A DNA stretch of 62,432 bases, from NCBI GenBank assembly GCA_947630325.1, contig CANRHB010000009.1:1-62432 (forward strand), read 5' to 3'. A program made the translations under genes and the position numbers. The notes under the pieces were generated by a model. The model was not told the DNA's origin. It saw nothing but the letters and a program-made list of their open reading frames with translations, and did no database searches. This DNA comes from an uncultured Clostridia bacterium. Lineage in GTDB: Bacteria > Bacillota > Clostridia > Christensenellales > Borkfalkiaceae. Shown here piece after piece: positions 4,972-61,673 of the stretch; positions within the stretch are counted from its first letter, which is position 1; each line of letters begins with the position of its first letter.

Positions 4972-5041
4972 GTGTTTTCCGCATATTTCCCCAAGCGGAG
5001 ATTTTTCCCTCCCCTTCCGAAAAGTCACCTGCATGATTTTG

Positions 5042-5071
5042 TTGCATTCGGGCGGCGCGGTCTGTTACAAT
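5042..5071 (+). promoter_or_regulatory. Promoter that fixes the start of the NlpC/P60 gene
   Basis: TTGCAT (5042-5047) and TACAAT (5066-5071) are 18 bases apart. The -10 box overlaps an in-frame ATG at 5070, so the start at 5103 must be used. Confidence 0.65.
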
Positions 5072-5102
5072 GCGGACGAGAAAAAGATTTTGGGGGTACA
5101 AA

Positions 5103-5981: not shown

Positions 5982-6010
5982 AAAGGGCGGTTTTCCCCGC
6001 CCTTTGAATT
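5982..6010 (+). terminator. Terminator of the NlpC/P60 gene
   Basis: AAAGGGCGG and CCGCCCTTT arms surround TTTTCC directly after the stop codon. Confidence 0.7.
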
Positions 6011-6026
6011 GTAACCGCATTGAATT

Positions 6027-6224
6027 TTAACCGCAACCGTTGCAGTGTTTGCAATCGCCGTTGCAATGCTTGGGAGGCTTGCCCGTGGAGGAGTACATCT
6101 CCCCCGACCACTCCCGCTCCGCTCTGTGTTTGCAGACGGGACAGGTCACCTCTTCGTCATAGCGTTTGACGAGTTCTTCGAATTTCTTCCCGCAATGGGG
6201 GCATTTGTACTCCAAGATGGGCAT
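6027..6224 (-). CDS. FmdB-type zinc-ribbon regulatory protein
   Basis: The 65-residue protein starts MPILEYKCPHCGKKFE and carries a second CPVC at residues 28-31, which is the FmdB/CxxC_CxxC_SSSS zinc-ribbon pattern. A Cys/His-rich tail (CNGDCKHCNGCG) may bind another metal. I start at the ATG at 6224 because GGAGG lies close upstream. Family members are often annotated as regulators, but a role is rarely proven. Confidence 0.85.
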   Translation of the reverse strand: MPILEYKCPHCGKKFEELVKRYDEEVTCPVCKHRAEREWSGEMYSSTGKPPKHCNGDCKHCNGCG

Positions 6225-6280
6225 TGTTCTCCTCCGCCCACTATTATAATCCCCCGCCCCGCCCTTTGCAAGCATTTTTG

Positions 6281-6737
6281 AGGAAAAATGAGAGAGATGG
6301 CGAAAGGCCTTCTTAAAGCGTCATGTTGCCCCGCCCGCACATTCTATGTTGTCTAAGGGCGGCATGAGGAGCTTGCGACGAAGTAGCCGTAATGAGAAAA
6401 CACAGTCCGTGTGTATATGCGTCATGCTGAGCCGAAATGTGTTTACGCAGTCCCGTTAACAAGTCCGCGAAGGCATCTTGGTACGTTCGGGTTTGGTTTT
6501 AAGCGTACTTAAACGTAACAAGATTCCCTCGAAGAATTTCCATGTCGGACTTCGTTATTGCCTCTACGGCTCGGAATGACGCGCTTGTACGAGGCTTTGC
6601 CCACCCCCTTGATCCCCCGAGGGTGGAGGGGGTTCCACTTGCCCCCTCCGTGGGAAGTGATTCTACATACATGCCCCCTCCTCAGGAGGGGGGTAGGGCT
6701 TACAGGCGAGGAGAAAAGAATTGTGCGAAACCTAAAC
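6281..6737. repeat. Repeat-rich gap with no gene
   Basis: A family B repeat lies at 6328-6385. Family A-like fragments lie at 6420-6580, and a family C block with CCACCCCCTTGATCCCCC and CCTCCTCAGGAGGGGGG lies at 6598-6695. Short frames across it are made of repeat sequence and have no ribosome sites, so I do not call genes. Confidence 0.65.
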
Positions 6738-8183
6738 TTATATTACACATGCGCCGTCGGTGAAGGAATTGAACAGCCCCTCCACGTTTGCGCCCGCCTT
6801 GCGGAAGCAGGAGATGAGTTCCTCGGGCGAAGCGATCTTGCCCGTGTATGCCGCCACATAATTTTTCAAACCCGTGAAGAACTTCCTGTCCCCCACCGTG
6901 GCGCGCAGGCGGTCGAATAAGATCACGCCCTTGTCGTAAGCGATGTTGCGGTACTCATACTCTCCCGAAAACGCCGTTAAGGGGCGGTTCATGGTGGTGT
7001 CCGCCTCGCCCGCGATCTGGCTCTTATAGGAGAAGAAGGCGCGATAGCCGCTCTCGGAGCGCTTCATCGCCCCCTCGTAAGTGTCGCCGTACTCGGGAAA
7101 CGCCCCCAAAAAGAGCGCCGCCGAATATTCGGCAAGCCCCTCGTCCTGCCACGCGTTTTCGAATTGGTTGCTCCCCACCATGCCGTACCACCACTGGTGC
7201 GCCGTTTCGTGCGCAACAACCGCGGGCACGTCTGCACGTTGCAGAGCGGAGGAAATCATCGCAAGCCCCGAATACTCCATTCCCCCATAGGGAAAATCAG
7301 TCTCCACCAGCACATAGCGGGGATAGCCGTAATCGCCGAAGGTGTCGGAAAAATAGGAGAGCGCGTCCGTTGCCGCCTTCAAAGTGCTCTCGGGAGCGGG
7401 ATCGGAGGTGTACCAATACTCCACGGGGATCTCCCCCGCCTCCGCGGTGACGCAACTCAGTTCCTTTCCCAAAACGAGGCTTATCTCCCTGACCCCCTCC
7501 GCGGTGACGTTGAGCGTCTGCTTTGTTCCCGACACCTCAGAAGAGCCCACGCCGTTGTGGGCGATGCGGTACTCCGCGGGCAGGGTAAGGGAGAGGGTGT
7601 AATTTGCGCAGTCGGCGACAAACGGATCGCCGTTGCTCGAATAGACGTATTCGCAAAACCCGTTTTCGCCGAAACTGCAGAGCACGGGATAGAAATGGGA
7701 CAGGTTGACGTTCTTTTCCCCCACGCCGAGGCGGTGGTCGACCTTGGCGAGTGTGGTGGAGAAGGAGAGGGTAAGCGCGGCGCACTCCCCGGGATAGAGC
7801 GGTTCTTTGAGCGTTACGGAGAGAATGTTCTCATCCTCGCCGCACACTTGGAAACTCTCCGCCCCCTCCACCGAAGAAATTTCGATGCCGCCGTAACTCT
7901 CGCCCGCATAGTAGGCGGAGGAGCGGTAGAGTTCGGAGACGGGCGTATATTTCGCGCCCTCGCGGTAGGCGTTCGCCCACAGTTCAAAGGAGAGAGCCTC
8001 GAGCGTCCCCTCCGTGGGATTGGGCACGGAGACGTCCATTTCGGCGACGAGTTTATTTTCGGCGGGAAAGTACTCCCCGCGGATATCATAGCGGGCAAGA
8101 CCTTCCTCCCTCCCGCAGGCGGCGATCCCCATTGCGCCGAGGACGATCCCCGCGCCCGCCGCCAGACAAAGAAATTTTCGCAT
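6738..8183 (-). CDS. M1-family metallopeptidase lipoprotein
   Basis: This 481-residue protein begins with a signal peptide ending IAAC, a lipobox with Cys about residue 23, so it should sit outside the membrane. The middle contains GGMEYSG, the M1 aminopeptidase substrate motif. HETAH at residues 325-329 is followed 18 residues later by Glu348 in DEGLAEY, which completes the HExxH-18-E zinc site of gluzincins. The family trims N-terminal residues from peptides. I start at the ATG at 8183 behind GGGAGGT; 44 codons upstream are not supported. It is shorter than full aminopeptidase N, as in the compact M1 forms. Confidence 0.9.
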   Translation of the reverse strand: MRKFLCLAAGAGIVLGAMGIAACGREEGLARYDIRGEYFPAENKLVAEMDVSVPNPTEGTLEALSFELWANAYREGAKYTPVSELYRSSAYYAGESYGGIEISSVEGAESFQVCGEDENILSVTLKEPLYPGECAALTLSFSTTLAKVDHRLGVGEKNVNLSHFYPVLCSFGENGFCEYVYSSNGDPFVADCANYTLSLTLPAEYRIAHNGVGSSEVSGTKQTLNVTAEGVREISLVLGKELSCVTAEAGEIPVEYWYTSDPAPESTLKAATDALSYFSDTFGDYGYPRYVLVETDFPYGGMEYSGLAMISSALQRADVPAVVAHETAHQWWYGMVGSNQFENAWQDEGLAEYSAALFLGAFPEYGDTYEGAMKRSESGYRAFFSYKSQIAGEADTTMNRPLTAFSGEYEYRNIAYDKGVILFDRLRATVGDRKFFTGLKNYVAAYTGKIASPEELISCFRKAGANVEGLFNSFTDGACVI

Positions 8184-8255
8184 ATTGACCTCCCGAGGGA
8201 ACACCCTCCGCACAATGTATGCGCGCCCTTTCCCAAATAGAACAAAGAGACCCGT

Positions 8256-8303
8256 CAAAAAAAGCCGCCGCGTACTTTCGTCCCCGAAAGCGCGCGGCGG
8301 CTT
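8256..8303 (-). terminator. Terminator of the purine permease gene
   Basis: AAGCCGCCGCG (8262-8272) and CGCGGCGGCTT (8293-8303) pair; on the minus strand the stem is followed by seven T residues. Confidence 0.85.
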
Positions 8304-8319
8304 AAAAAATTGCAAACGT

Positions 8320-9819
8320 TTAAGTCACGAGGAACATCGCAAGGAAGAGCGCACAGATGATCCACGTGGTGACGCCGATCTCCTTTACCTTGCCCGTGCA
8401 CACTTTGACGAGCACATAGGCGATGATGCCCATGCCGATCCCCTTTTCGATGGAATAGCCGAGCAGCATGACGACGAAGGTGATGAATGCGACGACCGCC
8501 TCCAAGGGCTCCGCCCAATCGATGTCCTTGATCGTCTCCATCATGAGCACACCCACCCAGATGAGTGCGGGCGCTACCGCGCTCCGCGGAATGAGCTGGG
8601 CGATGGGCGAAAGGAACATGGCTACGATGAACAAGATCGCCGCAGTAAGAGCGGTGAAACCCGTCTTTCCTCCCTCCGCGACCCCAGAAGAGGACTCCAC
8701 GAAGGTCGTGACGGTGGTCGTCCCCGCCATGGAGCCGACGCAGGTCGCAAGCGCGTCGCAGAACATCATGCGCTTCATCCGGAGGGGCGCCCCGTTTTCG
8801 TCCAAGAGGTTGCCCCGCTTGCAGGTGCCGTACAAAGTGCCGATGGTATTGAACATATCGATCATGCAGAGGGAGAGCGCGGAGGTAAGCAGAACGACCA
8901 CGGCGGTCGCCGCTCCTCCCTCTATCCCGCTAAAATCGAAGCCCGCCGTGAACACCTTTCCGACCGCCTCGCTCCCCCACTCCTTGAACGCCGCGAAGGG
9001 GCTTACAAAGGTGATGGAGGAAAAGTACGCCTCCGCGCCCGCCGAGCCGCATCCATAGGCGATGCCCGCAAGAATGTAAAAGAGGCCGGCGGAGCCGAGG
9101 ATCCCCCAAAGAATGGAACCCTTGACTTTTTTATGCGACATGACCGCGATGGCTATCACCCCCGCAAAGGCAACGATGGCGGGGAGCATACCCGTGACCC
9201 CGTTTTTGGCGTCCCACGCCATAAAGCTGTTCCCCGCGTTCGGCATGACGCTGATCGAGAAGAACTTGACGAGGGTGGAGTCGTCCGCGACGATGACCTT
9301 CGCCTGTTGCATTCCGATGAAGGCGATGAAAAAGCCGATACCGATGGGGATCGCCTTTCTGACCGCCTGCGGAATGGCTTCGAAGATCTTCTGCCTTAGA
9401 CCCGTCGCCGTCAGAATGAGGAAGATCACCCCGTCGATGAGGGTAAACAGCATACAGTTGGCATACGTAAGCCCCGAATATCTCAGAAGCAGGGTGTAGA
9501 TGACGAAGGCGCCGACGCCGATCCCCGGAGCCTGCGCAAGGGGCATTCTCGCAAGCAATGCCATGAGAAGGGTGCCCGCGATCGCGCCGATCGCCGTGGC
9601 GATGTACGCCGCCCCGTAAGAGAGTCCCACCCACTCCTCCGAACACACGCTTGCGTTCACCATGAGGATATACACCATGGACATGAAGGTGGTAAAGCCC
9701 GCTATGATCTCCATGCGGAAGGTGGAGCTCATGCGCGAGATCCCGAAAAACCCGTCCAATTTGCCGAGGAACCCGCGGCGGGCGCTCTTTTCGGGAGCTT
9801 CGGTTTGATTGTTTTCCAT
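8320..9819 (-). CDS. Purine permease, AzgA/PbuG (NCS2-like) family
   Basis: The 499-residue protein has about 12-13 hydrophobic segments. The opening GFFGISRMSSTFRMEIIAGFTTFMSMVYILMV matches the hypoxanthine/guanine permease AzgA/PbuG group. So do the AQAPGIGVGAF segment, the GLRQKIFEAIPQAVRKAIPIGIGFFI segment and the late ESSSGVAEGGKTG. It should import purine bases with protons or ions. I found no purine riboswitch in the short leader. It is monocistronic with its own promoter and terminator. Confidence 0.92.
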   Translation of the reverse strand: MENNQTEAPEKSARRGFLGKLDGFFGISRMSSTFRMEIIAGFTTFMSMVYILMVNASVCSEEWVGLSYGAAYIATAIGAIAGTLLMALLARMPLAQAPGIGVGAFVIYTLLLRYSGLTYANCMLFTLIDGVIFLILTATGLRQKIFEAIPQAVRKAIPIGIGFFIAFIGMQQAKVIVADDSTLVKFFSISVMPNAGNSFMAWDAKNGVTGMLPAIVAFAGVIAIAVMSHKKVKGSILWGILGSAGLFYILAGIAYGCGSAGAEAYFSSITFVSPFAAFKEWGSEAVGKVFTAGFDFSGIEGGAATAVVVLLTSALSLCMIDMFNTIGTLYGTCKRGNLLDENGAPLRMKRMMFCDALATCVGSMAGTTTVTTFVESSSGVAEGGKTGFTALTAAILFIVAMFLSPIAQLIPRSAVAPALIWVGVLMMETIKDIDWAEPLEAVVAFITFVVMLLGYSIEKGIGMGIIAYVLVKVCTGKVKEIGVTTWIICALFLAMFLVT

Positions 9820-9851
9820 AAATTACTTCCTTTTTTTGAAAATTTTAAGTA

Positions 9852-9880
9852 ATTTTATCATATTCTTGACAAAAATGCAA
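9852..9880 (-). promoter_or_regulatory. Sigma-A promoter of the purine permease gene
   Basis: Minus-strand TTGCAT (9880-9875) and TAAAAT (9857-9852) are 17 bases apart. Confidence 0.65.
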
Positions 9881-9981
9881 GTTTTTTGACCGCAAAATCA
9901 GAAAAAATTCACATCAGATGAAAAAAATCTTCATTCGGAGAAAAAGTTTTACGATTTTTTTATCTTTTTTATCTTTCCCAC

Positions 9982-10009
9982 TTGATTTTTCCCGAAAATG
10001 CTGTATAAT
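9982..10009 (+). promoter_or_regulatory. Promoter of the EF-G-like gene
   Basis: TTGATT (9982-9987) and TATAAT (10004-10009) are 16 bases apart. The leader of about 60 bases contains a small TGTTCGAACA palindrome. Confidence 0.7.
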
Positions 10010-10077
10010 GGAAAAGGTGGGCTCTTGTTCGAACAGGACAACTTCTGCCCGCAATTTACCATTCCAAGGGGAACATT

Positions 10078-12138
10078 ATGAGTATTTCGGCAACAAATAT
10101 CCGCAACATCGCCATCGTCGGCCACGGCGGCGAGGGCAAGACGACGCTCATGGAGGCGATCCTTTTCAACGGCGGCGTCATCGAACGCATGGGCAAGACG
10201 GACAACGGCACCACCGTCTCCGACTTCGACGAGCAGGAGATCGCAAGAAAGACCTCCATTTCCCTCGCCGTCGCCAACCTTACGTGGAAGGACGTCAAGA
10301 TCAATCTTCTCGACGCGCCCGGGTTCTATGATTTCGAGGGCGAAGTCATCGCCGCAATGCGCGCGGCGGGCGCGGCGCTCGTGGTGGTGGGGCCGAACGG
10401 CTCGGTCACGGTGGGCACCGAGAAGGCGCTCGACCGCTGTCTCAAACTCAAAAAACCTTCCATCGTCTTTATCAACGGCATGGACAAGGAAAACGCCGAC
10501 TATCCCGGCACCGTGCGCGCGTTGCAGGAACGCTATAAGGGCAAGATCGCGCCCGTGCAGATCCCCATCATGGAGGGGAACAAGATGACGGGCTATATCA
10601 ACGTCATCACGGGCGAAGCGTATAAATTCGGCGCAAAGGGCGTGGAGGCGGTCGAAGTCCCCGCCGCCTATGCCTCCGAACTTACCGAAATGCAGGGCGT
10701 TTTGCAGGAATCCGCCGCGGAGAACGATGAAGAACTCCTCGAAAAATACTTCGAAGAGGGCGCGCTTACTCCCGAAGAGACGGCGCTCGGCCTCCGCAAG
10801 GGCATCCAGACGATCAGCGTCATTCCCGTACTCGCAGGCAGCGCCCTCCTCAACAAGGGGGTCATCAACCTCATGAACGCGCTCGTCGAATATCTGCCGC
10901 AGGCGGCCGAACGCGCGGGACTTCCCGCGACCGACCTCAAGACGAAAGAGCAGATCTCCGTTGCGTGCGACGAGAGCGCTCCCTTCGCGGCGCAGATCTT
11001 CAAGACTGCCGTCGACCCCTTCGTGGGCAAACTCAACTACTTACGCGTCTGCCGCGGCGTTCTCCGCTCGGGCATGACCGTCTATAATCCCAATACCGAC
11101 ACCGAGGAGCGCATCAACGCCATCTATCTTCTCGTCGGCAAGAAGCAGATCCCCGTCACCGAACTCGTCGCGGGCGACATCGGCGCGGTGAATAAGCTGA
11201 GCAACACGGGCACGGGCGACACCTTGTGCGATCCCGCCGCTCCCGTGCAGTTCGAGCCCATCCACTTCCCCGAACCCGTGCTCTCGATGGCGGTCAACGC
11301 CACCGTGCGCGGCACCGAGGACAAAGTGTTCGGCGGGCTCTACCGCCTCGCCGAAGAGGACAAGAGTTTCCAGGTGCGCAAGAACACCGAGACGGGCGAG
11401 ACGCTTGCCTGCGGGCAGGGCGAAGTCCAGCTCGAGATCATCAAGCGCAGGCTCAAGAGCAAATTCGGCGCGGACGCCGATTTCTCCACCCCCACCGTCG
11501 CCTACCGTGAAGCGATCACAGGGAAGGCGGAGGCCGAGGGCAAGCACAAGAAGCAGACGGGCGGCGCGGGACAGTTCGGCGTCGTGGAGATCCGCTTCGA
11601 ACCGGGCGCAGAGGACGGCGTGTTCGAATTCGTGGACGCAGTCGTCGGCGGCACGGTGCCCAAGCAGTTCATTCCCGCCGTGGAAAAAGGTCTGCGCGAA
11701 GCCATCCAGAAGGGCGTGCTTGCGGGCTATCCCATGGTCAACTTGAAAGCGACCCTCTTCGACGGCAAATATCACCCCGTCGACAGTAAGGAAGTTGCCT
11801 TCGTCTCGGCGGCGAAACTCGCTTACGAGGACGGCATCCGCCGCGCAAGGCCCGTCATTCTCGAGCCCGTCTGTTCGATGAAGATCACGGTGCCCGAACA
11901 GTACGTGGGCGACATCATGGGCGACCTCAACAAGCGCCGCGGCCGCATCATCGGCATGGACACCGTCGAGGGGTTGCAGGTCATCACGGCGGAGGCTCCC
12001 GAGGGCGAGATCCTCACCTATGCGACCTCCCTCCGCTCCATGACGCAGGGAAGAGGCACCTTCTCGCAGGAGTTTGCCCGCTATGAGCAAGCGCCCGAAA
12101 CCGTTTTGCAGGCAGTCGTCAAAGCACAGCAAGGCTGA
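10078..12138 (+). CDS. Elongation factor G-like GTPase (EF-G paralogue)
   Basis: This 686-residue protein has the full EF-G layout: GTPase domain, domain II, and the domain III-V region with GGAGQFG and a C-terminal domain containing MGDLNKRRGRI. The P loop reads GHGGEGKTT (15-23) where canonical EF-G has a GHIDAGKTT-type loop, and the switch region carries DFDEQEIARKTSI. These traits mark the EF-G-like paralogue group (FusA2-type), not the main translocase. DAPG is at 79-82. The guanine-specificity motif is NGMD at 133-136 instead of NKMD. AGGGGA precedes the ATG. Its exact role, possibly stress translation, cannot be settled from sequence. Confidence 0.88.
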   Translation: MSISATNIRNIAIVGHGGEGKTTLMEAILFNGGVIERMGKTDNGTTVSDFDEQEIARKTSISLAVANLTWKDVKINLLDAPGFYDFEGEVIAAMRAAGAALVVVGPNGSVTVGTEKALDRCLKLKKPSIVFINGMDKENADYPGTVRALQERYKGKIAPVQIPIMEGNKMTGYINVITGEAYKFGAKGVEAVEVPAAYASELTEMQGVLQESAAENDEELLEKYFEEGALTPEETALGLRKGIQTISVIPVLAGSALLNKGVINLMNALVEYLPQAAERAGLPATDLKTKEQISVACDESAPFAAQIFKTAVDPFVGKLNYLRVCRGVLRSGMTVYNPNTDTEERINAIYLLVGKKQIPVTELVAGDIGAVNKLSNTGTGDTLCDPAAPVQFEPIHFPEPVLSMAVNATVRGTEDKVFGGLYRLAEEDKSFQVRKNTETGETLACGQGEVQLEIIKRRLKSKFGADADFSTPTVAYREAITGKAEAEGKHKKQTGGAGQFGVVEIRFEPGAEDGVFEFVDAVVGGTVPKQFIPAVEKGLREAIQKGVLAGYPMVNLKATLFDGKYHPVDSKEVAFVSAAKLAYEDGIRRARPVILEPVCSMKITVPEQYVGDIMGDLNKRRGRIIGMDTVEGLQVITAEAPEGEILTYATSLRSMTQGRGTFSQEFARYEQAPETVLQAVVKAQQG

Positions 12139-50493: not shown

Positions 50494-50525
50494 AGGGCTT
50501 ATCCCTGTTACGGAATAAGCCCTAA
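50494..50525 (-). terminator. Terminator of the recombinase gene
   Basis: AGGGCTTAT (50494-50502) and ATAAGCCCT (50515-50523) pair and overlap the recombinase stop codon. Confidence 0.7.
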
Positions 50526-52405
50526 TGTTTGATTACGATTCGTTCGGCGGTACGCTTTGCCTTGCCGCGGAAGTTACTTTCTCGGGTTCTTGATGTTAGC
50601 CTGTGCAGTACTCCACTTTGATATGTATTTTTTGCGATACTGTCAATTTCCGTGAAGTACTGATTGTGAAAAAAAGTAGGCAACACCCCGTCGTCCTCTA
50701 CCGTTCTCACATCCAACCGCAAGGTATTTTTACGACCTTCCAACGTGCAGAACGATTGATGATACTCACCTTCATCAAGCGTCAAGAACCAACTGAAATG
50801 CGTTGGACTATCGACAATGATCGTAGCGACAAACTTCTCGATGAGCGCAGCGGGAACCTTCCCCGCTTTATACTCCGATAACTCTTGAAGTCTCGCTTTT
50901 AGTTTTGTGATGTCGATCTCTTTCCGCGTTTCTATTGTATCAGAGGGGCTCGCCTTTGTCAAGTCTTGCTGTAACTTTTCTAATTCAGATTCGGTTTCCC
51001 CTCGCAATCTCAAATAATCTTCTTTTCCAATCTCACCGTCTGCCCTCATATTCATGAGATTGGCAAGTCTGTTTTTTGCTCTTTCGATCTTCCCCTCTAT
51101 CCCTGCAATTTCTTCTTTTGTCATTGCCGTGTCGCTTTGGAAATTACGATTAAAAATCTCTATTGCCTCCAACACGGCATCTTTTCGGTCTACCCAAAGT
51201 TCACGGAACAGATGTGCCGCCATAACTTCAAACTTCCAGTCACAAATCATGGAACCGTCGCAGTAGCCTTCTGTATCCAGTCCGCTTTGCTCGCGCAGCG
51301 TTTTGGACCCGTTATTTAGGACTCGATAGCATCTGTATCCGTATGACCAACTTCCGTCTTTCCTCTGATGCCATCTGTTTTTTCTTAACTTTGATCCGCA
51401 GGAGCAACGCGCCTTATGGAGAAAAACATCGTCGGTCTGTTTCACCCCGAAGGGGCGCATTGTTCCGTCCTCACGCCTCAAATGCTGTGTCTTTTTCCTC
51501 CTCAATTCAGCACAATAGTCCCAAAGTTCTTCGGAAACGATTGGCTCAAAATCCCCTTTTATATATAGGTAAGAGGTTTCGTCAAGATTTTTGATCCGTT
51601 TTTGATCGAGGTAGTTGTTGCAAAATGATTTCAAATAGCATTTATAGCCCTTATATGTCGCATTGCGCAAAATCCTCCCCACCTTTGAGCATTCCCAACT
51701 GACCTTTCCCACCCCGTCTTTGCGTTTCAAACGTGTGAGTTCATTAACGATCCGTTTCTCGCCGTACCCTTTGGAATACAAATCAAAAATGATTCTTACA
51801 GTTTCCGCTTGCTCCGAATTGATTACATAGGTTCCTTTTGCTTTATCCCTATCGTAACCTATGATGTTTCCGTTGCCATAAAGAACGCCGTTATCGCGGC
51901 TTATCTTTTGTCCTGCTCGCACTCGTTCGGAAGTTTTTCTGCTTTCTTCTTGCGCTAATGTTGCCATGAGCGATAAGCGCAGTTCTCCATCGCCGTCCAT
52001 AGTCCATATATTATCTTCGACAAAGTAGACTTCAACGCCATATTCTTTCAACTCACGGGTAACTACAAGGGTATCAACCGTATTACGCGCAAATCGGCAG
52101 ACCTCACGGGTGACAATCAAATCGAATTTGCGTTTTTTTGCGTCGGCAATCATTTCCATAAAAGACGGACGCTTTTTTGCTTGTGTCCCTGTAATACCCT
52201 CATCGATATACTTGCGCAAAACATGCCAGTTCTTATGATACCTTGCTTGATCGTCATACCATTGCATCTGATTTTCAAGCGCGGCAAGCTGCGCTTCATG
52301 TTCCGTGGAGACTCTGCCATAAAACACAACTTGCCTATCTCTGAAACGATCCGTATTAACATTTGTCGGCAATACAACTTTATTTTGGTTTTGCACAAAA
52401 TTCAT
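50522..52405 (-). CDS. Large serine recombinase, element integrase
   Basis: The 627-residue protein has a resolvase catalytic domain with nucleophile Ser33 in FYGRVSTEHEAQ. A recombinase domain (KVGRILRNATYKGY near residue 245) and a zinc ribbon (CSCGSKLRKN and a later GYRCYR) follow, then a coiled coil at about 430-480. This is the large serine integrase type used by Tn4451-like and ICE elements for att-site integration and excision. It starts behind GAGGAG, next to a small SHOCT-like frame. Confidence 0.95.
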   Translation of the reverse strand: MNFVQNQNKVVLPTNVNTDRFRDRQVVFYGRVSTEHEAQLAALENQMQWYDDQARYHKNWHVLRKYIDEGITGTQAKKRPSFMEMIADAKKRKFDLIVTREVCRFARNTVDTLVVTRELKEYGVEVYFVEDNIWTMDGDGELRLSLMATLAQEESRKTSERVRAGQKISRDNGVLYGNGNIIGYDRDKAKGTYVINSEQAETVRIIFDLYSKGYGEKRIVNELTRLKRKDGVGKVSWECSKVGRILRNATYKGYKCYLKSFCNNYLDQKRIKNLDETSYLYIKGDFEPIVSEELWDYCAELRRKKTQHLRREDGTMRPFGVKQTDDVFLHKARCSCGSKLRKNRWHQRKDGSWSYGYRCYRVLNNGSKTLREQSGLDTEGYCDGSMICDWKFEVMAAHLFRELWVDRKDAVLEAIEIFNRNFQSDTAMTKEEIAGIEGKIERAKNRLANLMNMRADGEIGKEDYLRLRGETESELEKLQQDLTKASPSDTIETRKEIDITKLKARLQELSEYKAGKVPAALIEKFVATIIVDSPTHFSWFLTLDEGEYHQSFCTLEGRKNTLRLDVRTVEDDGVLPTFFHNQYFTEIDSIAKNTYQSGVLHRLTSRTRESNFRGKAKRTAERIVIKH

Positions 52406-52657: not shown

Positions 52658-52885
52658 TTATCCCTTTTGTCCTTGTTCAGTTTGCTTTTTCAAACTTTCA
52701 TATCCTTGACGGATCAATTCCACTTTTGTGATCTCATGCTCTTTCAAAAAAGCATTGATCTCTTCGAGTTCGCCTCGCGGCAAATAGGTACTAAATGTCC
52801 CATTTGTCGCTTTGCGTTTTTCTTTGTGCTTATCCTCATACCTACGCTTTATAATGCGGCTCGGCGTATCTTCTTTTCTTTCCAT
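52658..52885 (-). CDS. Small ribbon-helix-helix-like DNA-binding protein
   Basis: The 75-residue basic protein has a Lys/Arg-rich N-terminus and the stretch GTFSTYLPRGELEEINAFLKEHEITKVELIRQG. This resembles a beta strand followed by two helices of an Arc/MobC-like ribbon-helix-helix fold. On mobile elements such proteins help nick DNA or repress genes. It lies 9 bases after the TnpV-like gene. Confidence 0.7.
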   Translation of the reverse strand: MERKEDTPSRIIKRRYEDKHKEKRKATNGTFSTYLPRGELEEINAFLKEHEITKVELIRQGYESLKKQTEQGQKG

Positions 52886-52894
52886 AGCGCCCCT

Positions 52895-53257
52895 TTAACT
52901 TACATAGACAAGTTCATTCAAGATCTCTTCTTCGATTGCCGCATTCATTGCGTTCAGTCTGCGCACGTCCGTCAAGTAGTCACCCGTCCGTTTGTATTGC
53001 TCGCTCTTGGAAAGTTTTTCGCGCAACACTTCGTCCATCTCCTCCGCCCGCCGGTCAATGCCGTGCAAGTATTCGGGAAGATTTTCTATCGTCCACATCT
53101 TTGCTTGGGCACGGTTTTCAAGGTAGTCGCGTGCAAGCGTTCCGTACTTCCCATACACATGGTGTACGGGCGGCACAAGCTCTTCATAGCGCATGACTTC
53201 CTCTTCCGTCAAGCCCTCTCCCCTCTCGGCTTTCGTCAAAATTTCAGCGTCGTTCAT
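52895..53257 (-). CDS. TnpV-like element protein
   Basis: The 120-residue protein resembles TnpV of Tn4451-type elements: YGKYGTLARDYLENR..., then an IDRRAEEMDEVLREKL helix and a final IEEEILNELVYVS. The function of TnpV is not known. It starts behind AAAGGAGGAAA and leads the small operon with the ribbon-helix-helix-like gene. Confidence 0.75.
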   Translation of the reverse strand: MNDAEILTKAERGEGLTEEEVMRYEELVPPVHHVYGKYGTLARDYLENRAQAKMWTIENLPEYLHGIDRRAEEMDEVLREKLSKSEQYKRTGDYLTDVRRLNAMNAAIEEEILNELVYVS

Positions 53258-53359: not shown

Positions 53360-55774
53360 TCATGTGACAAGTGCGGCGATGCCTCTCATGAGGTAGGGAC
53401 AAGCGACGACGATTGCAAAGATGACGACCAAGCCGATGACATAGTTCACAAGCATTTTCTTTGCCTTTGCCTTGTCCTCGTTTTTGACGGCTATAATGAT
53501 TGCCACGCCGATTGCAATGCTCCACAGTCCCGCCGTCGCAAGGAGTACCCAATACATATAGGGCGCGTACTGCTCGAACAGATATTCCACATAGTTCGTC
53601 ACCTGTTCATATTGATTTCCGAGTTCCTGCGTATAGCTGTCGCCGCAGACCGAACAGGTATATTGTCTTATCGTATTGTCGCCCGAAGTGGTTGAGCTTG
53701 TGATTTCATAGTGATGACCGAGCGCGGGAATACGGCTTTCTACCGCCTCGCCGCATTTGTCACAAACTTGCTTTCTCATGCCGTCCGTGGTACAGGTCGC
53801 GGCGTTCACGATCATGTTCGTAAAACTATGCCCTGTCGGGTATGTTCCGTCGCTTTCCCGTTTCTCATAGCCGCACACTTGGCACGAGTACACCGTCATT
53901 CCAAATTCGGTGCAAGTCGGTAATTCTGTCTCGGTGATAAAGTTATGCCCGAGCGGTTGCGTTTCGTTGTCTCGGTAATTCGTACCGCAGATCTCGCACT
54001 CATGCAGGGTATAGCCTCCCGTCTCACAAGTGGCGGGGTAGGAGCTTGACACATAGCGATGTCCCGTGGCTTGTGTTTCTCCGCTTCGGTAACTGCTCTC
54101 GCAACGAGAACAGTTATAAACGGTGTAGCCGCTTGTAGTGCATGTCGGCGATACAACGGTGGCGATGTAATTATGCCCGAGTGCTTGTGTTTCGTTGTCT
54201 CGGTAACTGTCACCGCAACGGGAGCAAACATAGACAGTATATCCTCTATCCACACAGGTCGGCGCAGTTATGGAGGCGACGTAACTATGCCCCAAACCTC
54301 CTTGCGTGGACTCCGAGTAGGTCTGCCCGCAACGGGAACATTTATAATTTGTCGTCCCGCCCGTACAGGAATTACTTTGCGTGATAGTGTAGTTGTGTCC
54401 GAGCGGTTGCGTCTCATTGTCGCGGTAGCTGTCGCCGCAGTTGGAACAGGTAAAGATCGTATAGCCGCCCGAAGTACAGGTCGGCTCGGTGACAGACGGC
54501 ACATAGTCATGCCCATACCCTTCTCCCGTCGATACCGTGCTGTAATTGCAACGGGAACAGGTATAAACGGTCGTCTCCAACGTGCAGGAGATCGAGCGCG
54601 CCGCCGAAAGGCTATGCCCGAGTGCGGGCGCTTTGCTTTCCGTATAGGAGTCCCCGCAACGGGAGCATGTATAAGTTGTGTACCCGTCCGCAGTACAGGT
54701 AGGAGCGGTCGTTTTCGCCGTGTAGCTGTGTCCGAGTGCCGATGTCTTATTCCCCGTATAAGAACTTCCGCAACGGGAACATGAATAAGTCGTGTACCCG
54801 TCCGAAGTGCAGGAAGGAGAGGTTGTCGTTGCCGTGTAGCTGTGTCCGAGTGCCGATGTCCTGTTCCCTGTATAAGTGTCCCCGCAACGGGAGCATGTAT
54901 AAGTTGTGTACCCGTCCGCAGTACAGGTGGGAGGAGTCGTCGTTGCCGTGTAGCTATGTCCTATCCCGTCGCCCGTCGTTTTGGAATATGTATCTCCGCA
55001 ACGAGAACAACGATATATGGTCGTTTCGCCCGTACAAGTTGTGGTCTGTGTTTCTTTGTAGTCATGCCCGAGCGCGGACGTTTTGTCGTCTGTGTAAGAG
55101 TAGCCGCACGAACATTTATAAGTCGTGTAACCGCCCGCCGTGCATGTCGGTTTCGTCACGGTTGGGGTGTAACTGTGAACATGACCGCCGATTTTGAAAT
55201 TGAACGTACACTCAATTATGACTACACGGCGCACATTGCGGAGTGGACCTGTCTGTGTCCAATTCGATTGTCCTACATACGTCACATAATATGTCCCGTC
55301 GTCAAGAGTAGCGGATATTTTTTTTGTTGACGCAGACGCGACAACCGTTCCAGACGCTTTCTTGATTTGGAAAGAGTTTTTGTCGTAAATCGAATTTAGC
55401 ACGTTTATCGTAACTTCTTTCGAGTTTAGCGTGCCTCCTTGTACGAGCGTCCCTGTCCCTGCTGTACTATCGGGATAGCTCCCATAAATTTCAAATTCAA
55501 TCTCGCATTTTTCGGATACGCTTTGGGCGATGTGTGCGTCAGATTTCAACACGTTCTTTTTTTCCGCCTCAACATTCATTTTGGGGTCGGCACTTGGATC
55601 AGTAGTCGCACCCGCAGAATACTTGTAGTCGAAGTACATCTTGTACCGAGGCGTTCCTGCCGCCGAAACTGTTTTTGCACCCGCCCTTATTGAAAAGCCG
55701 AGAAAAAGTGCAAGCGCACAAAGTAAGAGCGCAGAAAGGACTACCGCAAAAGTGCCTTTTCTTTTAATCCCCAT
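53360..55774 (-). CDS. Surface zinc-ribbon-repeat protein fused to a VirB2-like pilin module
   Basis: This 804-residue precursor has a signal peptide, a 150-residue N-terminal domain, and 14 repeats of about 38 residues from residue 170 to 710. Each repeat reads GH.Y.......C......Y.C..CG, with His, Cys and a CxxC pair. The last 80 residues have two membrane helices and resemble the separate pilin at 59706-60008: IAVKNEDKAKAKKMLVNYVIG here, IAHRNEEKINARDMVKNLIIG there. It overlaps the VirB4 stop by 11 bases. I infer an adhesin displayed by a pilin-type membrane anchor; zinc binding or disulfides are both possible. Confidence 0.85.
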   Translation of the reverse strand: MGIKRKGTFAVVLSALLLCALALFLGFSIRAGAKTVSAAGTPRYKMYFDYKYSAGATTDPSADPKMNVEAEKKNVLKSDAHIAQSVSEKCEIEFEIYGSYPDSTAGTGTLVQGGTLNSKEVTINVLNSIYDKNSFQIKKASGTVVASASTKKISATLDDGTYYVTYVGQSNWTQTGPLRNVRRVVIIECTFNFKIGGHVHSYTPTVTKPTCTAGGYTTYKCSCGYSYTDDKTSALGHDYKETQTTTCTGETTIYRCSRCGDTYSKTTGDGIGHSYTATTTPPTCTADGYTTYTCSRCGDTYTGNRTSALGHSYTATTTSPSCTSDGYTTYSCSRCGSSYTGNKTSALGHSYTAKTTAPTCTADGYTTYTCSRCGDSYTESKAPALGHSLSAARSISCTLETTVYTCSRCNYSTVSTGEGYGHDYVPSVTEPTCTSGGYTIFTCSNCGDSYRDNETQPLGHNYTITQSNSCTGGTTNYKCSRCGQTYSESTQGGLGHSYVASITAPTCVDRGYTVYVCSRCGDSYRDNETQALGHNYIATVVSPTCTTSGYTVYNCSRCESSYRSGETQATGHRYVSSSYPATCETGGYTLHECEICGTNYRDNETQPLGHNFITETELPTCTEFGMTVYSCQVCGYEKRESDGTYPTGHSFTNMIVNAATCTTDGMRKQVCDKCGEAVESRIPALGHHYEITSSTTSGDNTIRQYTCSVCGDSYTQELGNQYEQVTNYVEYLFEQYAPYMYWVLLATAGLWSIAIGVAIIIAVKNEDKAKAKKMLVNYVIGLVVIFAIVVACPYLMRGIAALVT

Positions 55775-58406
55775 TTCCTTCCTCCTTTTTGTTTTCGTCG
55801 AACAAGCTCTGCGCATAGTCGCCAGCCTTGATACGAACGCAAGCACGAAGTTCGGTAGAACCTACAAAGAACGCCTGCCCCGTCACCGCCGAGATGATCA
55901 TGCGCTGTTCCTCGTCGTTGAAACTATCCCCCGCACGGTACACGTCCAAAACGTCTTTCATGTCGGGCGCGGCGAGCTTGAAGATAAAGTTGTACTGACT
56001 GTTCTTTAAGATCGTCGAGGTCTTATTGCGAAGTTCCTCGTTTGCGTTCCAGTCCGCGATGTTCTGCGTGGCGGGAATGAACGCGCCGTCGTACTTTCGG
56101 ATACGCTTGTTCATGGAATAGAAGAAGTCGAGCGCGATCGGGAACTTCGCATCAATGAACAGGTGCGCCTCGTCCACGACGATCATGGTGTGCAGATTCG
56201 CCCCGTTCTTGTTGCGCTCTCTCGCGTTGATAACTTCCTGCTCGATGAAACGGAACACAAGCAGCATCTGCGCGTTTGCAACGACGTTGTTCTTGTTCGC
56301 AAAGAGCGATTGGAAGTCGAAGTCGATGAGGTCTGCCCCCACTTGCAATGTAGACGGCGCGTTCCAAATGTCACTGTAACGCCCCGTGACAAATTTCTGC
56401 AAGTACAGTTCCGCCGTGCGCAGATCCCGCTGTGTGAGCGCGTCCATGTCCTCTGTCTTTTTGCTTTGGAGCGTTTCCATGAGATCGGAAAAGAGCGGGA
56501 AGTAGTCCGCAGGGAAGTTCGAGCAATCGGTATTCTCGGTGATCCCCATTCTCGCATACGTCTCCACCGTAAGATTGTTGATGAGTTCAATCACGTCCGT
56601 CGGCGCATCCGCAAGCACGATCTTAAAGAAACTTTCAAGCATCTTCAAGTGCGTATTGAATGTCACTTTGCTGTCTGCGGGCGTTCCGTCCTCGGTGAGT
56701 ATCTTATAGATGTGGAACGGGTTGATCCTTCCCTCCCGCGCATTGCCGACGTTGATGATATTGCCGCAAAGATTTCTCGTGAGCGCAAGATACTCCGCTT
56801 CGGGGTCGAGGACAATGACTCTCGTCCCGTTCGCCCACTCATTGAGAATGAGATTTTTGAGGAAGAACGACTTCCCGCTGCCCGACTTCCCTATTATCAT
56901 CGCGTTTGAGTTCTGATACAGATTCCCTCTCTTCCAAAGATTGAAGATGAAGGGATAGCCGTTGGTCTTATTCTCGCCGAGAAGGATACCGCCCTCGTCC
57001 ATGACGAACGTCCGCACGAACGGGAACGCCGCCGCAAGGGAAGAGCTGTTGATGCCTCGCTCTTGGTTTTTGAGCGTAGACACGGGCGATACCGCCGCGC
57101 TCTTGAACCCGTCGATCTGCAAGCCGTACAGCGTAGACGGGCGGAAGTTGCCCGTGAGCATTGCCCGCCGCACCGCTTTCTTGTAGCTGTCGCTTTTGAG
57201 ATAGTTGTAAGCCGTGACAGTCAACGTGACGTCAAACAGACTTTCGTTCTCCGTTTGCAATGCGTCGAGTAGGGTGTTCATCGTTTCTTGATGAATTTCC
57301 GCGCTGTTCGCGTCACTTGCCTTGTCAGAGATGATCTGCTTGGTCTGCATTTCTCCTATCACCTTGTCGATGCGGCGAATGGCTTTCACCTTATCCACAG
57401 GGGAAACGTGCATGACGATTTTCGTATTGGGGATATTGAACAGCTCCGCGCCCCATGCGTTCTTGACGCGGAGCGGATAATCCGATACCGCAAATGTCGC
57501 CGCCTCTGTGCCGTCAATCTCGTACTTGTTGCCGTGAAATATCACTTCTTTCGGCTTGACCCACGCGACGAGTTCCTCGCTTGGAATATCCTTGCTCTCC
57601 CGCTCGTCGAAGTTGCGGGAAAAGCTGTATTTCAAGAATACCGCCGTTTCCCTCATGCCGAGAAGTTTCGTGTTCAGCCCGCACTTTGCGATCTCGGCTG
57701 CGACGTTGACCGCCGTGCTTTCAAGATCGAGTTCGTTTCTGCCATACAAAACTATGTAGTAGTCCGAAAGATACTGTTTGCGGATATTGTTGAGCTTGTC
57801 GATACGGTCGATGCGCTCCCGCAAGATATCTTCCTTGATCTCCTTGACATCGGAATATTCATCGCCCTCTGCGACCGTTGAAAGTCTTCCAAACAGTTCC
57901 TCGGCAAATCCGTCCAAGTTCACAGGGCGGTCGATCTTCACGATGTCCGCACTTTGGTTTTGGTCGAGAAGTTTTAAGGCGTTCGCAAAGTAATTGATGT
58001 CGATGTTCTGCTCCGTAACGTCCTCGATCCCGAAGTTCTTCTGCCCGACCTTGATGACGCGCCCGAGCGTACCGCTGCCATATACGAGCAAACCGTTATC
58101 TTTGATCTCCTTTAAGGAATAGAGCGCGTCCACGTTCTCTTTGGGGTTCTTCGCGTCCGACGTGTATTTCTTCTTCGCAAACAGGAATTTGACATTCTCA
58201 AAGATGAACGTAAAGAAGATACCGTCGGGAGTAGGCATGAACATCACCACGGCGCACAGCCCCATGATGACGGCAAACACCCATGCACCCGCCGTGATCG
58301 CTATGAAGATGATCGCAAACACCACAAGGGCGACGATCACATCTGCCATTGAGTAGCACTTCCATACCGTGTTTTTTACTTTTATTTTTTTGGGAATGAT
58401 CCTCAT
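55764..58406 (-). CDS. virB4: VirB3-VirB4 fusion, conjugation ATPase
   Basis: The 880-residue protein has an N-terminal region with two membrane helices (residues 20-65) resembling PrgI/VirB3, then the VirB4 ATPase. Walker A is AMIIGKSGSGKS near residue 505 and Walker B is MIVVDEAHLF near residue 750. ATQNIADW completes the family signature. VirB4 powers assembly of the type IV secretion channel. It starts in an ATGA overlap with the VirB6-like stop, behind GGAG. Confidence 0.93.
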   Translation of the reverse strand: MRIIPKKIKVKNTVWKCYSMADVIVALVVFAIIFIAITAGAWVFAVIMGLCAVVMFMPTPDGIFFTFIFENVKFLFAKKKYTSDAKNPKENVDALYSLKEIKDNGLLVYGSGTLGRVIKVGQKNFGIEDVTEQNIDINYFANALKLLDQNQSADIVKIDRPVNLDGFAEELFGRLSTVAEGDEYSDVKEIKEDILRERIDRIDKLNNIRKQYLSDYYIVLYGRNELDLESTAVNVAAEIAKCGLNTKLLGMRETAVFLKYSFSRNFDERESKDIPSEELVAWVKPKEVIFHGNKYEIDGTEAATFAVSDYPLRVKNAWGAELFNIPNTKIVMHVSPVDKVKAIRRIDKVIGEMQTKQIISDKASDANSAEIHQETMNTLLDALQTENESLFDVTLTVTAYNYLKSDSYKKAVRRAMLTGNFRPSTLYGLQIDGFKSAAVSPVSTLKNQERGINSSSLAAAFPFVRTFVMDEGGILLGENKTNGYPFIFNLWKRGNLYQNSNAMIIGKSGSGKSFFLKNLILNEWANGTRVIVLDPEAEYLALTRNLCGNIINVGNAREGRINPFHIYKILTEDGTPADSKVTFNTHLKMLESFFKIVLADAPTDVIELINNLTVETYARMGITENTDCSNFPADYFPLFSDLMETLQSKKTEDMDALTQRDLRTAELYLQKFVTGRYSDIWNAPSTLQVGADLIDFDFQSLFANKNNVVANAQMLLVFRFIEQEVINARERNKNGANLHTMIVVDEAHLFIDAKFPIALDFFYSMNKRIRKYDGAFIPATQNIADWNANEELRNKTSTILKNSQYNFIFKLAAPDMKDVLDVYRAGDSFNDEEQRMIISAVTGQAFFVGSTELRACVRIKAGDYAQSLFDENKKEEGNGD

Positions 58407-59626
58407 TCTCCGCTACCTCCCTCTGATGCTCCTTCTTCCGCGCCGCTGTCCGACGCGCCGCTTTCACTCTCCGAGTACTTGTCGCCGTCGTCCGAACCTG
58501 ACGAACCTCCGCTTTCTCCCGAGTCGCCGTCCTTTCCCTTCTTTTTATGGGAAACAATGTGTGCGACCCCTTTGATACCTTTCGCCGCAAGTCCTATCGT
58601 CATGCCGCCGATGATCCTACTTCCATAGAACGCACTTCTGAGGAAACCGCCGCCCGCATGATAATCTTCCGCCTGCCCGAAAAGCCGCGCAAACAGAGTT
58701 TGCCCTGCGGGGATCACCATAGCGCCGCCGATGATCATGACGAGCATGAACATGGCGTTCCCGAACCCGCCCAGTCCGTCGAGTTTCATCTGCATGATAA
58801 ACGGCAATATGATTGCAAACACGTTGACCGAGAACACTGCGCCAAACGCGAGGATGATTTTTGTGAGAAACATTTCCCGCCAATTCTTGAATCGCGCCCC
58901 GTCGTCGAGCGGAAGCGCAGACATGGAGATCGGCATACAGAAGTACAGATACACGACTTCAAAGATGCGCTTTGCAAGATTGACAAGCGCGATCAAGAGC
59001 GCAATCGTCACCGCAACGCCCGCAATTAGCGCGGGCAGATAGTAGAACGTGTCGGGGTTGACCATGCCGTTGAGTTTCCACGAGGTGGGCCATATCCCAA
59101 AGAGAGCTGCATTGTATGTACCAAAGATGTCCCCGACTTTGAGCGACGTCACGTCGATGTCGTTAATGGAATATCCGTTTACCCAGTCCCCCACGCAAGC
59201 GTTGAACAGCGCGTTGGAGATTTTCGTCGTGTTCCCGATCTGGAATATCTGCGCCACGAGTTTAATGCCCGACCCTGCGATCATGATTCCAAGGAATACC
59301 ACGGCAAGCATGGCAAAAGTGCCGAGAATGGAAAGAAAAAATTTGCCGACGATAGACGAAAGGTTTCTGTTGTTGGCAATGAAGTTTTTGATGATGCCGA
59401 CAATGGCAAAGATACAGGCAAGCCCCACCGCCAAAATGAGGATGCACCAAAAGACGTTCGCCACAACGGGGTCCCCGATGATAAGTTCAAGGATATTGAC
59501 CTTTTGTCCTTGATAGTTCACGTCCGCAATTCCCGATATGGCATTGAAAAGTTCCATGATACCGTCTATGAGCTGTAAGAGCCATAGAAAGAGTTGCAGA
59601 CCGAGTTCTTGAAAAAATAATAGCAT
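58403..59626 (-). CDS. VirB6/TrbL-like conjugation membrane protein
   Basis: The 407-residue protein has seven to eight membrane helices, a central GIWPTSWKLNG loop and a Ser/Gly/Asp-rich acidic tail from residue 365. Its position between pilin and VirB4 fits VirB6, the membrane channel of type IV systems in Gram-positive conjugative elements. It resembles the ICE transmembrane protein group described in mycoplasma-type elements. It starts behind AGGAGG. Confidence 0.85.
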   Translation of the reverse strand: MLLFFQELGLQLFLWLLQLIDGIMELFNAISGIADVNYQGQKVNILELIIGDPVVANVFWCILILAVGLACIFAIVGIIKNFIANNRNLSSIVGKFFLSILGTFAMLAVVFLGIMIAGSGIKLVAQIFQIGNTTKISNALFNACVGDWVNGYSINDIDVTSLKVGDIFGTYNAALFGIWPTSWKLNGMVNPDTFYYLPALIAGVAVTIALLIALVNLAKRIFEVVYLYFCMPISMSALPLDDGARFKNWREMFLTKIILAFGAVFSVNVFAIILPFIMQMKLDGLGGFGNAMFMLVMIIGGAMVIPAGQTLFARLFGQAEDYHAGGGFLRSAFYGSRIIGGMTIGLAAKGIKGVAHIVSHKKKGKDGDSGESGGSSGSDDGDKYSESESGASDSGAEEGASEGGSGE

Positions 59627-60035: not shown

Positions 60036-61673
60036 TTAGTTTTGTTTGTTCTTCTTTTTCTTCTTGATGATGAGGTATGCCGCAAGCCCGCCGCCCGCAA
60101 GTACGATGAGTACAAAGAACAGCACAAGCGATGTCACGCCGCTGTTTCCGCTCTTTTGCTCCCCGTCGTCTGGGTTTTCGGGCGGTTCTTGTTCGCTCGG
60201 GTTTCCTTGCCCTTCGGGCGGTTCTTGTTCGCTCGGGTTGCCTTGTCCTTCGGGAGGTTCTTGTCCGCTCGGATTACCTTGTTCCTCGGGCGGTTCTTGT
60301 TCGCTCGGGTTGCCTTGTTCCTCGGGCGGCTGTTGTCCGCTTGGATTTTCTTGTTCCTCGGGCGGCTGTTGTCCGCTTGGATTTTCTTGTTCCTCGGGCG
60401 GCTGTTGCCCGCTCGGATTTGACGGGTTATCGGGCGTATCGGGAGTTTCGGGCGGTTGCTCGGAAATTCCACGGGAAGAAAGCCAAAATGTTCTTTGCTC
60501 TCTGCCTTGTCCGTCTACGATCTTCACTTCATAAGTCCCGCTCAAATCGGAGTAGAACACTTGCCCATAGGCATTCGCTTTCAGCTCGGTGAAATTGTTT
60601 CCGTCCTTTGAGCCAAGAACGCGCAGACCGCCGCTTTTCACACTTCCGCAGTTGCAAACCAAGAGAGCGATAAAAAATTTGTTCTCGGGGTTGTCTTGCA
60701 CATAAAGTTGGAACGAATGGCTATGCGGTTCGGACGGCTCTACGGGTTCGGGGATATATCCTGTGTCCCCGCTCGTAACGAAGTCGGAGAGATAGCTGTA
60801 ATTACACTTGATACAAATGTGCCGCGTGTAACCGACACTCTCGGGCGTTGCTTGCACCATAACGTGTAGGTATTCATGCTCTGTCGGAATCTCATAGTCC
60901 GTCACATATCGGTCATTGCAAACCGAACAAATATGCTCGGTGTAGCCGTAACTGACGCACGAGGGCGGCGTGACGGTGAGAACATAGTCGTGTCCTCGTT
61001 TGTCCGTATAGTTGGCAATGTAGCTGTCCTCGCAATTCAGACAGGTATAGGTGGTGTAGCCACCCGTCGTGCAGGTCGGTTCTACAACGCTCCGCTCATA
61101 GTTGTGTGACAGCTTGTCCGAAAAACCGTCGTTATAGGAATAACCGCAGACGGAACAGGTGTGTTTCGTGTAGCCCTGCTCCGTGCAAGTCGCAGGGAAA
61201 GTTTCGTCCTTATAGAAATGCCCCGTCTCGTCCTCGTACTTGTCCGAGTACTCATAGCCGCAGACCGTGCAGAAATGCGTCGTGTAGCCCTTGTGCGTAC
61301 AGGTGACGGGAACGACGATCTCCGCAAATTGGTGTCCGAGTTCGGGCGCGGTCGTCTGCCTGTATGTATCCCCGCAATATTGACAGGTGTAGAGGTCATA
61401 GCCCTTTGTCGTACAGGTTGCCGCAACCGCTTGCACGGTGTATTTGTGGTCGGTCGCCGAGGTGTAGTTGTCATTCTTTGTCTCCCCGCAGAGCTGACAG
61501 GTATATAGGGTGTATCCCTGTGCAGTACACGTTGGAAGGACAATTCTCTCCGTGTATTGATGTTGGCAAGGTTCGGCAGCCGAGGCTTCCGTTCCCGCCG
61601 CATTCCCCATAAAAAAGCACGTTGACAGCATGATCAACGCGCCCAATACGGGAATGAAAAATTTAACTTTCAA
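60036..61673 (-). CDS. Surface protein with seven zinc-ribbon-like repeats and Pro-rich stalk
   Basis: The 545-residue precursor has a signal peptide and seven repeats of about 38 residues (H.Y........C....GY.....C..C). The seventh lacks its first Cys. A beta-domain at about 310-395, a stalk of seven 12-residue Asn/Pro/Ser/Gly/Gln/Glu units and a C-terminal membrane helix with a Lys tail (IIKKKKKNKQN) follow. I start at a TTG at 61673, seven to eight bases after AGGAGG. It could contact recipient cells during transfer. No LPxTG motif is present. Confidence 0.82.
   Translation of the reverse strand: MKVKFFIPVLGALIMLSTCFFMGNAAGTEASAAEPCQHQYTERIVLPTCTAQGYTLYTCQLCGETKNDNYTSATDHKYTVQAVAATCTTKGYDLYTCQYCGDTYRQTTAPELGHQFAEIVVPVTCTHKGYTTHFCTVCGYEYSDKYEDETGHFYKDETFPATCTEQGYTKHTCSVCGYSYNDGFSDKLSHNYERSVVEPTCTTGGYTTYTCLNCEDSYIANYTDKRGHDYVLTVTPPSCVSYGYTEHICSVCNDRYVTDYEIPTEHEYLHVMVQATPESVGYTRHICIKCNYSYLSDFVTSGDTGYIPEPVEPSEPHSHSFQLYVQDNPENKFFIALLVCNCGSVKSGGLRVLGSKDGNNFTELKANAYGQVFYSDLSGTYEVKIVDGQGREQRTFWLSSRGISEQPPETPDTPDNPSNPSGQQPPEEQENPSGQQPPEEQENPSGQQPPEEQGNPSEQEPPEEQGNPSGQEPPEGQGNPSEQEPPEGQGNPSEQEPPENPDDGEQKSGNSGVTSLVLFFVLIVLAGGGLAAYLIIKKKKKNKQN
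60172..60425 (-). repeat. Tandem 36-base coding repeat
   Basis: About seven near-identical 36-base units encode the 12-residue stalk repeat NPSGQQPPEEQ(E/G) of the surface protein. Copy number here may vary between strains. Confidence 0.85.

Follow-up and report, generated by a model that had tools for sequence, protein, structure and literature searches.

Here we describe P0001, an 804-residue protein of a Clostridia transfer operon whose C-terminal end is, by profile and shuffling tests, homologous to the pilin encoded in the same operon, and whose remainder is a predicted ectodomain of one β-rich domain and 14 Cys/His repeat units. The gene lies in a 62,432-nucleotide stretch of DNA from an uncultured Clostridia bacterium (the window). 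Taking sequence comparisons and predicted models together, we propose, with a probability of about one half, that P0001 belongs to the conjugation machine of a Clostridia ICE as a minor pilin or a pilin-anchored surface protein, most likely a mating adhesin. Related elements carry the fusion at the same place in the operon, where the outer part of the protein has been exchanged and the hairpin has been conserved. We call the element an ICE on the strength of a sister element, G100, which encodes a MobL relaxase together with a coupling protein and ArdC, the copy in the window being truncated where the contig ends.

The fusion gene and its operon

The P0001 gene starts at the ATG at 55774, with AGGAGGAAGGAA immediately 5′ of it as a strong ribosome site (Table 1). 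This ATG falls within the 3′ end of virB4, with an overlap of 11 bases, in agreement with a first-pass annotation of this DNA. The same annotation had placed the gene last in the transfer operon. No T4SS gene comes after it, but three other reading frames of the same strand do: a TnpV-like gene, a 75-aa ORF and a serine recombinase. The N terminus of the virB4-like ATPase may be PrgI/VirB3-like.

Table 1 Features of the element and of P0001 in the window
Feature	Position	Strand	Details
Pilin-fusion giant gene (P0001)	53360..55774	-	804 aa
Signal-peptide-like N terminus of P0001	55658..55774	-	Residues ~1–39; from hydropathy and predicted helix 6–28 only
N-terminal β domain of P0001	55187..55657	-	Residues 40–196; pLDDT mostly 84–96, the model's best-predicted part
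14 GH..C..CxxC repeat units of P0001	53624..55186	-	Residues 197–717
Pilin-like C-terminal hairpin of P0001	53363..53623	-	Residues 718–804: acidic lead, TM1, basic loop with 5 Lys, TM2
Stretch of the P0001 gene without DNA match in sister element G100, flanks matched	53662..55756	-	blastn
virB4-like ATPase	55764..58406	-	Mbov_0397 family 572.4 bits (cut-off 590); P-loop_TraG 53.2
VirB6-like membrane protein, MMCAP2_0566 family	58403..59626	-	178.5 bits (cut-off 90)
Bare pilin (P0002), 100 aa	59706..60008	-	T4SS_pilin 21.7 bits (cut-off 26.6); Mbov_0395 family 25.4 (cut-off 40)
REP2, second repeat protein	60036..61673	-	Repeats, a proline-rich stretch and a single C-terminal TM; probably starts at the TTG at 61673, preceded by AGGAGG
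virD4-like coupling protein, end only, cut by contig end	61687..62432	-	TraG-D_C 30 bits
TnpV-like gene, common downstream neighbour	52895..53257	-	PF14198 39.1 bits
Conserved 75-aa ORF	52658..52885	-	Recurs in fetched loci
Large serine recombinase of element	50522..52405	-	Resolvase 101.1 bits, Recombinase 62.3 bits

The AlphaFold model of P0001 has a mean pLDDT of 69.5 (about 52–67 in the hairpin), and its repeat units are β-rich. No adhesin family in Pfam or NCBIfam matched P0001, nor did any VirB5 family in the same collections at E up to 0.1, and its C-terminal end is the hairpin, without an LPxTG motif. No solved structure matched by sequence; a further search gave zinc-finger chains alone, none better than E 0.19. 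Foldseek returned nine matches to the P0001 model at E up to 0.001, all with meaningless TM-scores of 0.11 or less, and none to the bare pilin model.

Fetched loci of sufficient length repeat the order virD4, REP2, pilin(s), virB6, virB4, fusion, TnpV, 75-aa ORF and recombinase, with REP2 and the recombinase more variable and sometimes undetected. TnpV was not seen in L047, L048 and L095. In a comparison of 61 loci, TnpV is present in 57. The virB4 end is included in 34 loci, and in 32 of these the fusion lies directly behind virB4, the hairpin ORF starting −66 to +30 bases from the virB4 end. The two exceptions, L124 and L135, are each a single reading frame cut by an in-frame stop, which in L124 lies within the late repeats. 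Separate genes for the repeats and the hairpin, the arrangement that would have spoken against a fusion, were thus not found among the 34 checkable loci. In L135, from Pumilibacter intestinalis CLA-AA-M10, the stop is a TAG (5019–5021) immediately ahead of the hairpin, and the frame reads open before and after it; the same stop recurs in L167 (G481). The distant elements L047, L048 and L095 (virB4 57% and 50% identical) retain a signal-like start, CxxC repeats and the hairpin behind virB4.

Several further arrangements were seen. A second transfer operon, different from the first and truncated at both ends of its contig, is present in the genome of the window (L050; G000:C37:1-6500). In L084 and L100, virB4 is in two pieces with a gap of about 2.6–2.8 kb, perhaps an inserted intron or element. 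In the distant element L048, an ORF of 2140 aa lies between pilin and virB6 (5049–11471); it starts with a signal-like segment and contains Cys-rich repeats.

The C-terminal hairpin and the element's pilin

Residues 718–803 of P0001 align without gaps to the bare pilin, with 25 of 86 positions identical (29%; BLASTP E 2e-11), and a profile–profile comparison of 17 fusion ends with 16 pilins gave a probability of 98.8 and an E value of 1.3e-16 over 88 columns. A VirB6 profile, used as control, had no similarity to the fusion ends (hhalign probability 0.2) or to the bare pilins (0.4). The hairpin–pilin pair has a Smith–Waterman score of 139. None of 2000 full shuffles reached it, nor did any of 2000 shuffles with the hydropathy pattern preserved (mean 50.8, maximum 102); 303 hydrophobic windows drawn from ten further proteins encoded on the contig scored at most 57. 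The profile match, the VirB6 control and the shuffles together rule out generic hydrophobicity as the source of the C-terminal similarity, a doubt that the first-pass annotation had itself raised, and the probability of 0.2 rules out a VirB6 origin of the hairpin. These comparisons establish the P0001 C terminus as a homologue of the element's own pilin, and the proposed fusion of 14 repeats with a pilin-type end is real. Against VirB6-type NCBIfam models, P0001 scored weakly, at 12.6 and 13.5 bits (cut-offs 90 and 70), as did the bare pilin, at 22.0 and 21.6 bits.

The pilin kind itself is already known (PF18895, Mbov_0395 family). PF18895 was the family matched most often by bare pilins and fusion ends alike: in one-by-one scans at E up to 0.01 all 16 bare pilins matched it, as did 16 of 17 fusion ends, some of which also weakly matched the unrelated membrane families COX1, SpoIIM and Polysacc_synt (3/17 each). 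Measured against the curated cut-off of 26.6 bits, P0001 scored 18.6 as a whole and 25.0 as a hairpin cut-out, and P0002 scored 21.7; one of the 15 fusions scanned whole passed it (L095, 35.3 bits), the rest scoring 17–26. Because its scores stay under the cut-off, we label P0001 pilin-like rather than a formal member of PF18895.

The same helix pair appears in both AlphaFold models, at residues 721–764 and 768–803 of P0001 and at 12–58 and 64–96 of the bare pilin (mean pLDDT 74.2), at modest confidence, and residues of the loop and helices are common to fusion hairpins and pilins. The segment before TM1 has three acidic and no basic residues, whereas the loop has five Lys, one Asp and one Glu. 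From this charge distribution and the signal-peptide-like N terminus, P0001 is predicted to be exported, with the N-terminal ectodomain outside, the basic loop inside and the C-terminal end outside. VirB2 pilins have the same orientation, with the loop inside and both termini outside. By a median dN/dS of 0.077 (maximum 0.184; 29 usable of 303 pairs, with dS near saturation in most of them, median 1.18), the hairpin is under purifying selection.

Repeats, exchange and distribution of the ectodomain

Counting GH and CxxC positions gave 14 units in P0001, from GH197 to the CxxC at 707. Units 2–13 follow the pattern C-x8/9-C-x2-C with His on both sides; unit 1 has CxC, and unit 14 is missing its first Cys. 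Adjacent units are near copies in DNA over 54640–54961 (114-base period, 2.8 copies), and the unit copy number changes, since P0004, a near relative with 97.3% identity apart from the gap, has exactly one 38-residue unit fewer. Across 121 proteins, 665 of 808 CxxC units have three Cys and His on both sides; because three Cys per unit cannot all form disulfides inside one unit, the units are likely to bind metal. The earlier description of the repeats as zinc-ribbon-like stands for the Cys/His motif but goes no further than the motif, zf-CHY scoring 15.4 bits with P0001 against a cut-off of 31.3. Scores of the zf-CHY type in relatives reached 35.0 (L032) and 31.3 bits (L094).

Comparison with related elements shows that the outer part of the protein can be replaced as a block. 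The window and G100 share 94.1% DNA identity over a region that begins shortly ahead of the pilin and reaches the opening bases of the fusion gene; 2.1 kb without any blastn match of at least 100 bases follows, after which identity resumes at 84.7%, from about 100 codons before the fusion stop onward. At the protein level, VirB4 is 98.9% and the hairpin 93.5% identical, and the N-terminal 205 residues have no tblastn match in G100. A wider survey took 36 complete fusions with adjacent virB4 (of 41), which formed 23 pairs with VirB4 ends at least 93% identical, 19 of them measurable; the pairs are non-independent and the domain cut is crude. The N-domain was less than 40% identical in 11 of the 19, with hairpins 78–94% identical. 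Exchange is not universal, because the other 8 pairs keep the N-domain 46–98% identical. Recognisable surface modules occur in some ectodomains, with BspA-type LRR above cut-off in L095 and P0063 (74.9 and 82 bits) and OmpL47-type domains above cut-off in P0034 and P0032. REP2, whose units match the kind found in P0001 and which has a 36-base proline-rich tandem repeat at 60178–60420, also diverges fast, being 55% identical in G100 as against 98.9% for VirB4.

A database search with P0001 residues 712–804, confined to proteins of about 440–1400 aa, found 318 hairpin matches among 881 candidate proteins. The 120 matches listed were 75–100% identical over 98–100% of the hairpin, and 119 of them had at least four CxxC motifs by motif count, so P0001 is no isolated case; without five chimera-like proteins, four of which belonged to the 119, the count is 115 of 115. 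The fusions have about 500–1100 aa and 4–14 CxxC motifs, with a signal-peptide-like N terminus, judged by hydropathy, in 113 of 121 proteins (P0001 included). As a query, residues 1–205 found only three proteins; tblastn placed N-domain relatives in the fetched loci at about 29–65% identity, plus an 89% identical copy on C37. In the chimera-like sequences (P0008, P0042, P0044, P0066 and P0089, and loci L101, L137 and L152), hairpin or repeats are joined to other genes, several joins lying near a KQELG motif; misassembly or recombination is possible.

Hairpin matches occur in 16 of 103 genomes of the genus, two of which (G009, G035) look like bare pilins, in 35 of 297 of the order, mostly bare pilins, and in 10 of 291 of the class. 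Nine order matches, in families f1, f3, f6 and f32, are of the giant type represented by P0001, and three of these are incomplete (stops in G111 and G481, a contig end in G540). A spread beyond the order was rejected, the four large ORFs outside it being VirB6-like by eye (L209, L210) or unrelated (L211, L212); L213, a large ORF inside the order, is also unrelated. Named records (60 loci) are mostly Clostridia or Clostridiales MAGs, and named carriers include Candidatus Borkfalkia, Candidatus Coproplasma and Pumilibacter intestinalis CLA-AA-M10, with single records labelled Bacilli, Intestinimonas or Gastranaerophilales. One viral-collection contig matched; two plasmid records matched in the repeats only, and the hairpin was not found in them. 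Across the window's phylum, PF18895 is above its curated cut-off in 35 of 398 genomes, some matches falling in VirB6-like proteins; in 12 of 30 such loci, inspected by eye, the large ORFs looked polytopic and VirB6-like, and none had the repeats.

Other elements carry two bare pilins, or one or two medium pilins of about 210–290 aa, in which a CxxC-free N-terminal domain precedes a terminal hairpin; several medium-pilin ORFs are cut by contig ends. The two N-terminal domains of this type that were scanned had no convincing family match. The medium fusions L081, L082, L083, L084, L085, L090 and L091 precede virB6, sometimes two in a row. A tree of 44 rows, with 18 of its 41 inner branches unresolved and with some long rows, puts the 19 giant hairpins in a single group (100/100) far from the bare pilins; the nine medium hairpins make up one clade (99/93), which falls inside the bare pilins if the root is placed on the giant branch. 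As giant and medium hairpins group separately, the pilin-plus-ectodomain architecture probably arose twice.

Possible functions and known systems

In the reading we favour, a duplicated VirB2-like pilin hairpin would have come to anchor an exported protein at its C terminus and to serve as its assembly module. The hairpin would dock with the pilin/VirB6/VirB4 apparatus, and the β domain and the 14 probably metal-binding units would extend across the cell wall, either at the foot or at the tip of a pilin-built structure, where the ectodomain would contact the partner cell as a mating adhesin. Ectodomains swap between elements and the hairpin stays; a conserved hairpin with an exchanged ectodomain suggests a fit to the inner machine and changing outer partners. 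A role at the pilus tip or in mating adhesion, as first suggested, is compatible with the ectodomain exchange and the surface modules of relatives. More tentatively, the machine might build a VirB2-type pilus-like structure crowned by a pilin with its own partner-recognition domain, an exchanged cassette that sets which cells are contacted. We know of no pilus for this T4SS type, and the low hairpin pLDDT, the lack of a useful fold match in the searches above and the Pumilibacter copy with its pre-hairpin stop count against the favoured reading, as do the single fusion in 15 above the PF18895 cut-off, the bare pilin's score below it, the weak matches of some fusion ends to unrelated membrane families, the eight pairs with N-domains 46–98% identical and the near-saturated dS.

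Exclusion or wall scaffolding would produce a pattern similar to that of an adhesin. The repeat ectodomain could be a structural rod that supports the T4SS channel across the thick wall in place of VirB8- or VirB1-type parts, with the hairpin as its tie to the channel; two repeat proteins are encoded, the units are β-rich in the model, and no hydrolase or VirB8 was recognised by eye between virD4 and the recombinase in five operons. Such a rod, however, has no need for whole-ectodomain replacement while virB4 remains 98.9% identical, nor for differing module types and 4–14 CxxC motifs per protein, and we consider it unlikely. We give still less weight to surface or entry exclusion, in which cells holding the element would display the protein to block redundant entry and its variation would define exclusion groups. 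A predicted surface protein of a transfer operon, with diverse ectodomains among otherwise similar elements and a second operon copy in the same genome, would suit this role, yet a passive exclusion protein needs no pilin hairpin under purifying selection. Improbable, and the least favoured of the three, is a hairpin that is a plain two-TM membrane anchor without a pilin role, its ectodomain functioning apart from conjugation: the giant hairpins do form their own tree group far from bare pilins, but the place behind virB4, the dN/dS of 0.077 and the loop and helix residues common with pilins argue against it.

Among known proteins, the VirB2-like T4SS pilins of PF18895 (Mbov_0395 family, mycoplasma ICEs) share the helical hairpin, the basic loop and the virB6–virB4 operon. 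Known PF18895 members are small, and the profile spans 71 positions, whereas the fusions described here have about 500–1100 aa with a predicted ectodomain. FimH-type two-domain tip adhesins of chaperone–usher pili also join a binding domain to a pilin domain, but are unrelated and serve as an analogy only. Our search of the open-access literature found no pilin–ectodomain fusion in a T4SS.

A 2025 review (PMC12857230) offers two further parallels. Extended VirB6 proteins are likewise T4SS membrane proteins with a large hydrophilic domain, but the giant hairpins have no profile similarity to the element's VirB6 (probability 0.2). PrgB of pCF10 and TIE of pLS20 (PMC8092201) are large surface proteins encoded by conjugative elements, to which a role in the formation of mating pairs is ascribed; the PrgB anchor is of the LPxTG sortase type (PMC12857230), whereas that of P0001 is a pilin-like hairpin. 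The available sections of a study of Patescibacteria (PMC12102498) describe VirB2-like pilin genes near virB4 in monoderms, in arrays of 2–11 divergent pilins; those sections mention no fused ectodomain, and most of the clusters they cover are without a relaxase, unlike the sister element G100 with its MobL relaxase.

The 2025 review describes Gram-positive systems as being without conjugative pili and VirB2, Patescibacteria excepted (PMC12857230), with which the PF18895 matches in 35 of 398 phylum genomes fit badly. The Clostridia ICE family encodes VirB2-like pilins, sometimes two, plus pilins with predicted surface domains, and the fusion makes the question of Gram-positive VirB2 pilins testable. 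Assembly of these parts would mean that Gram-positive bacteria can conjugate with an adhesin borne on a pilus; failure to assemble would mean that a pilin has become a membrane anchor, and either outcome would be new. A pilus crowned by such a protein, if real, would merge adhesin and pilus, two strategies that have been described as alternatives.
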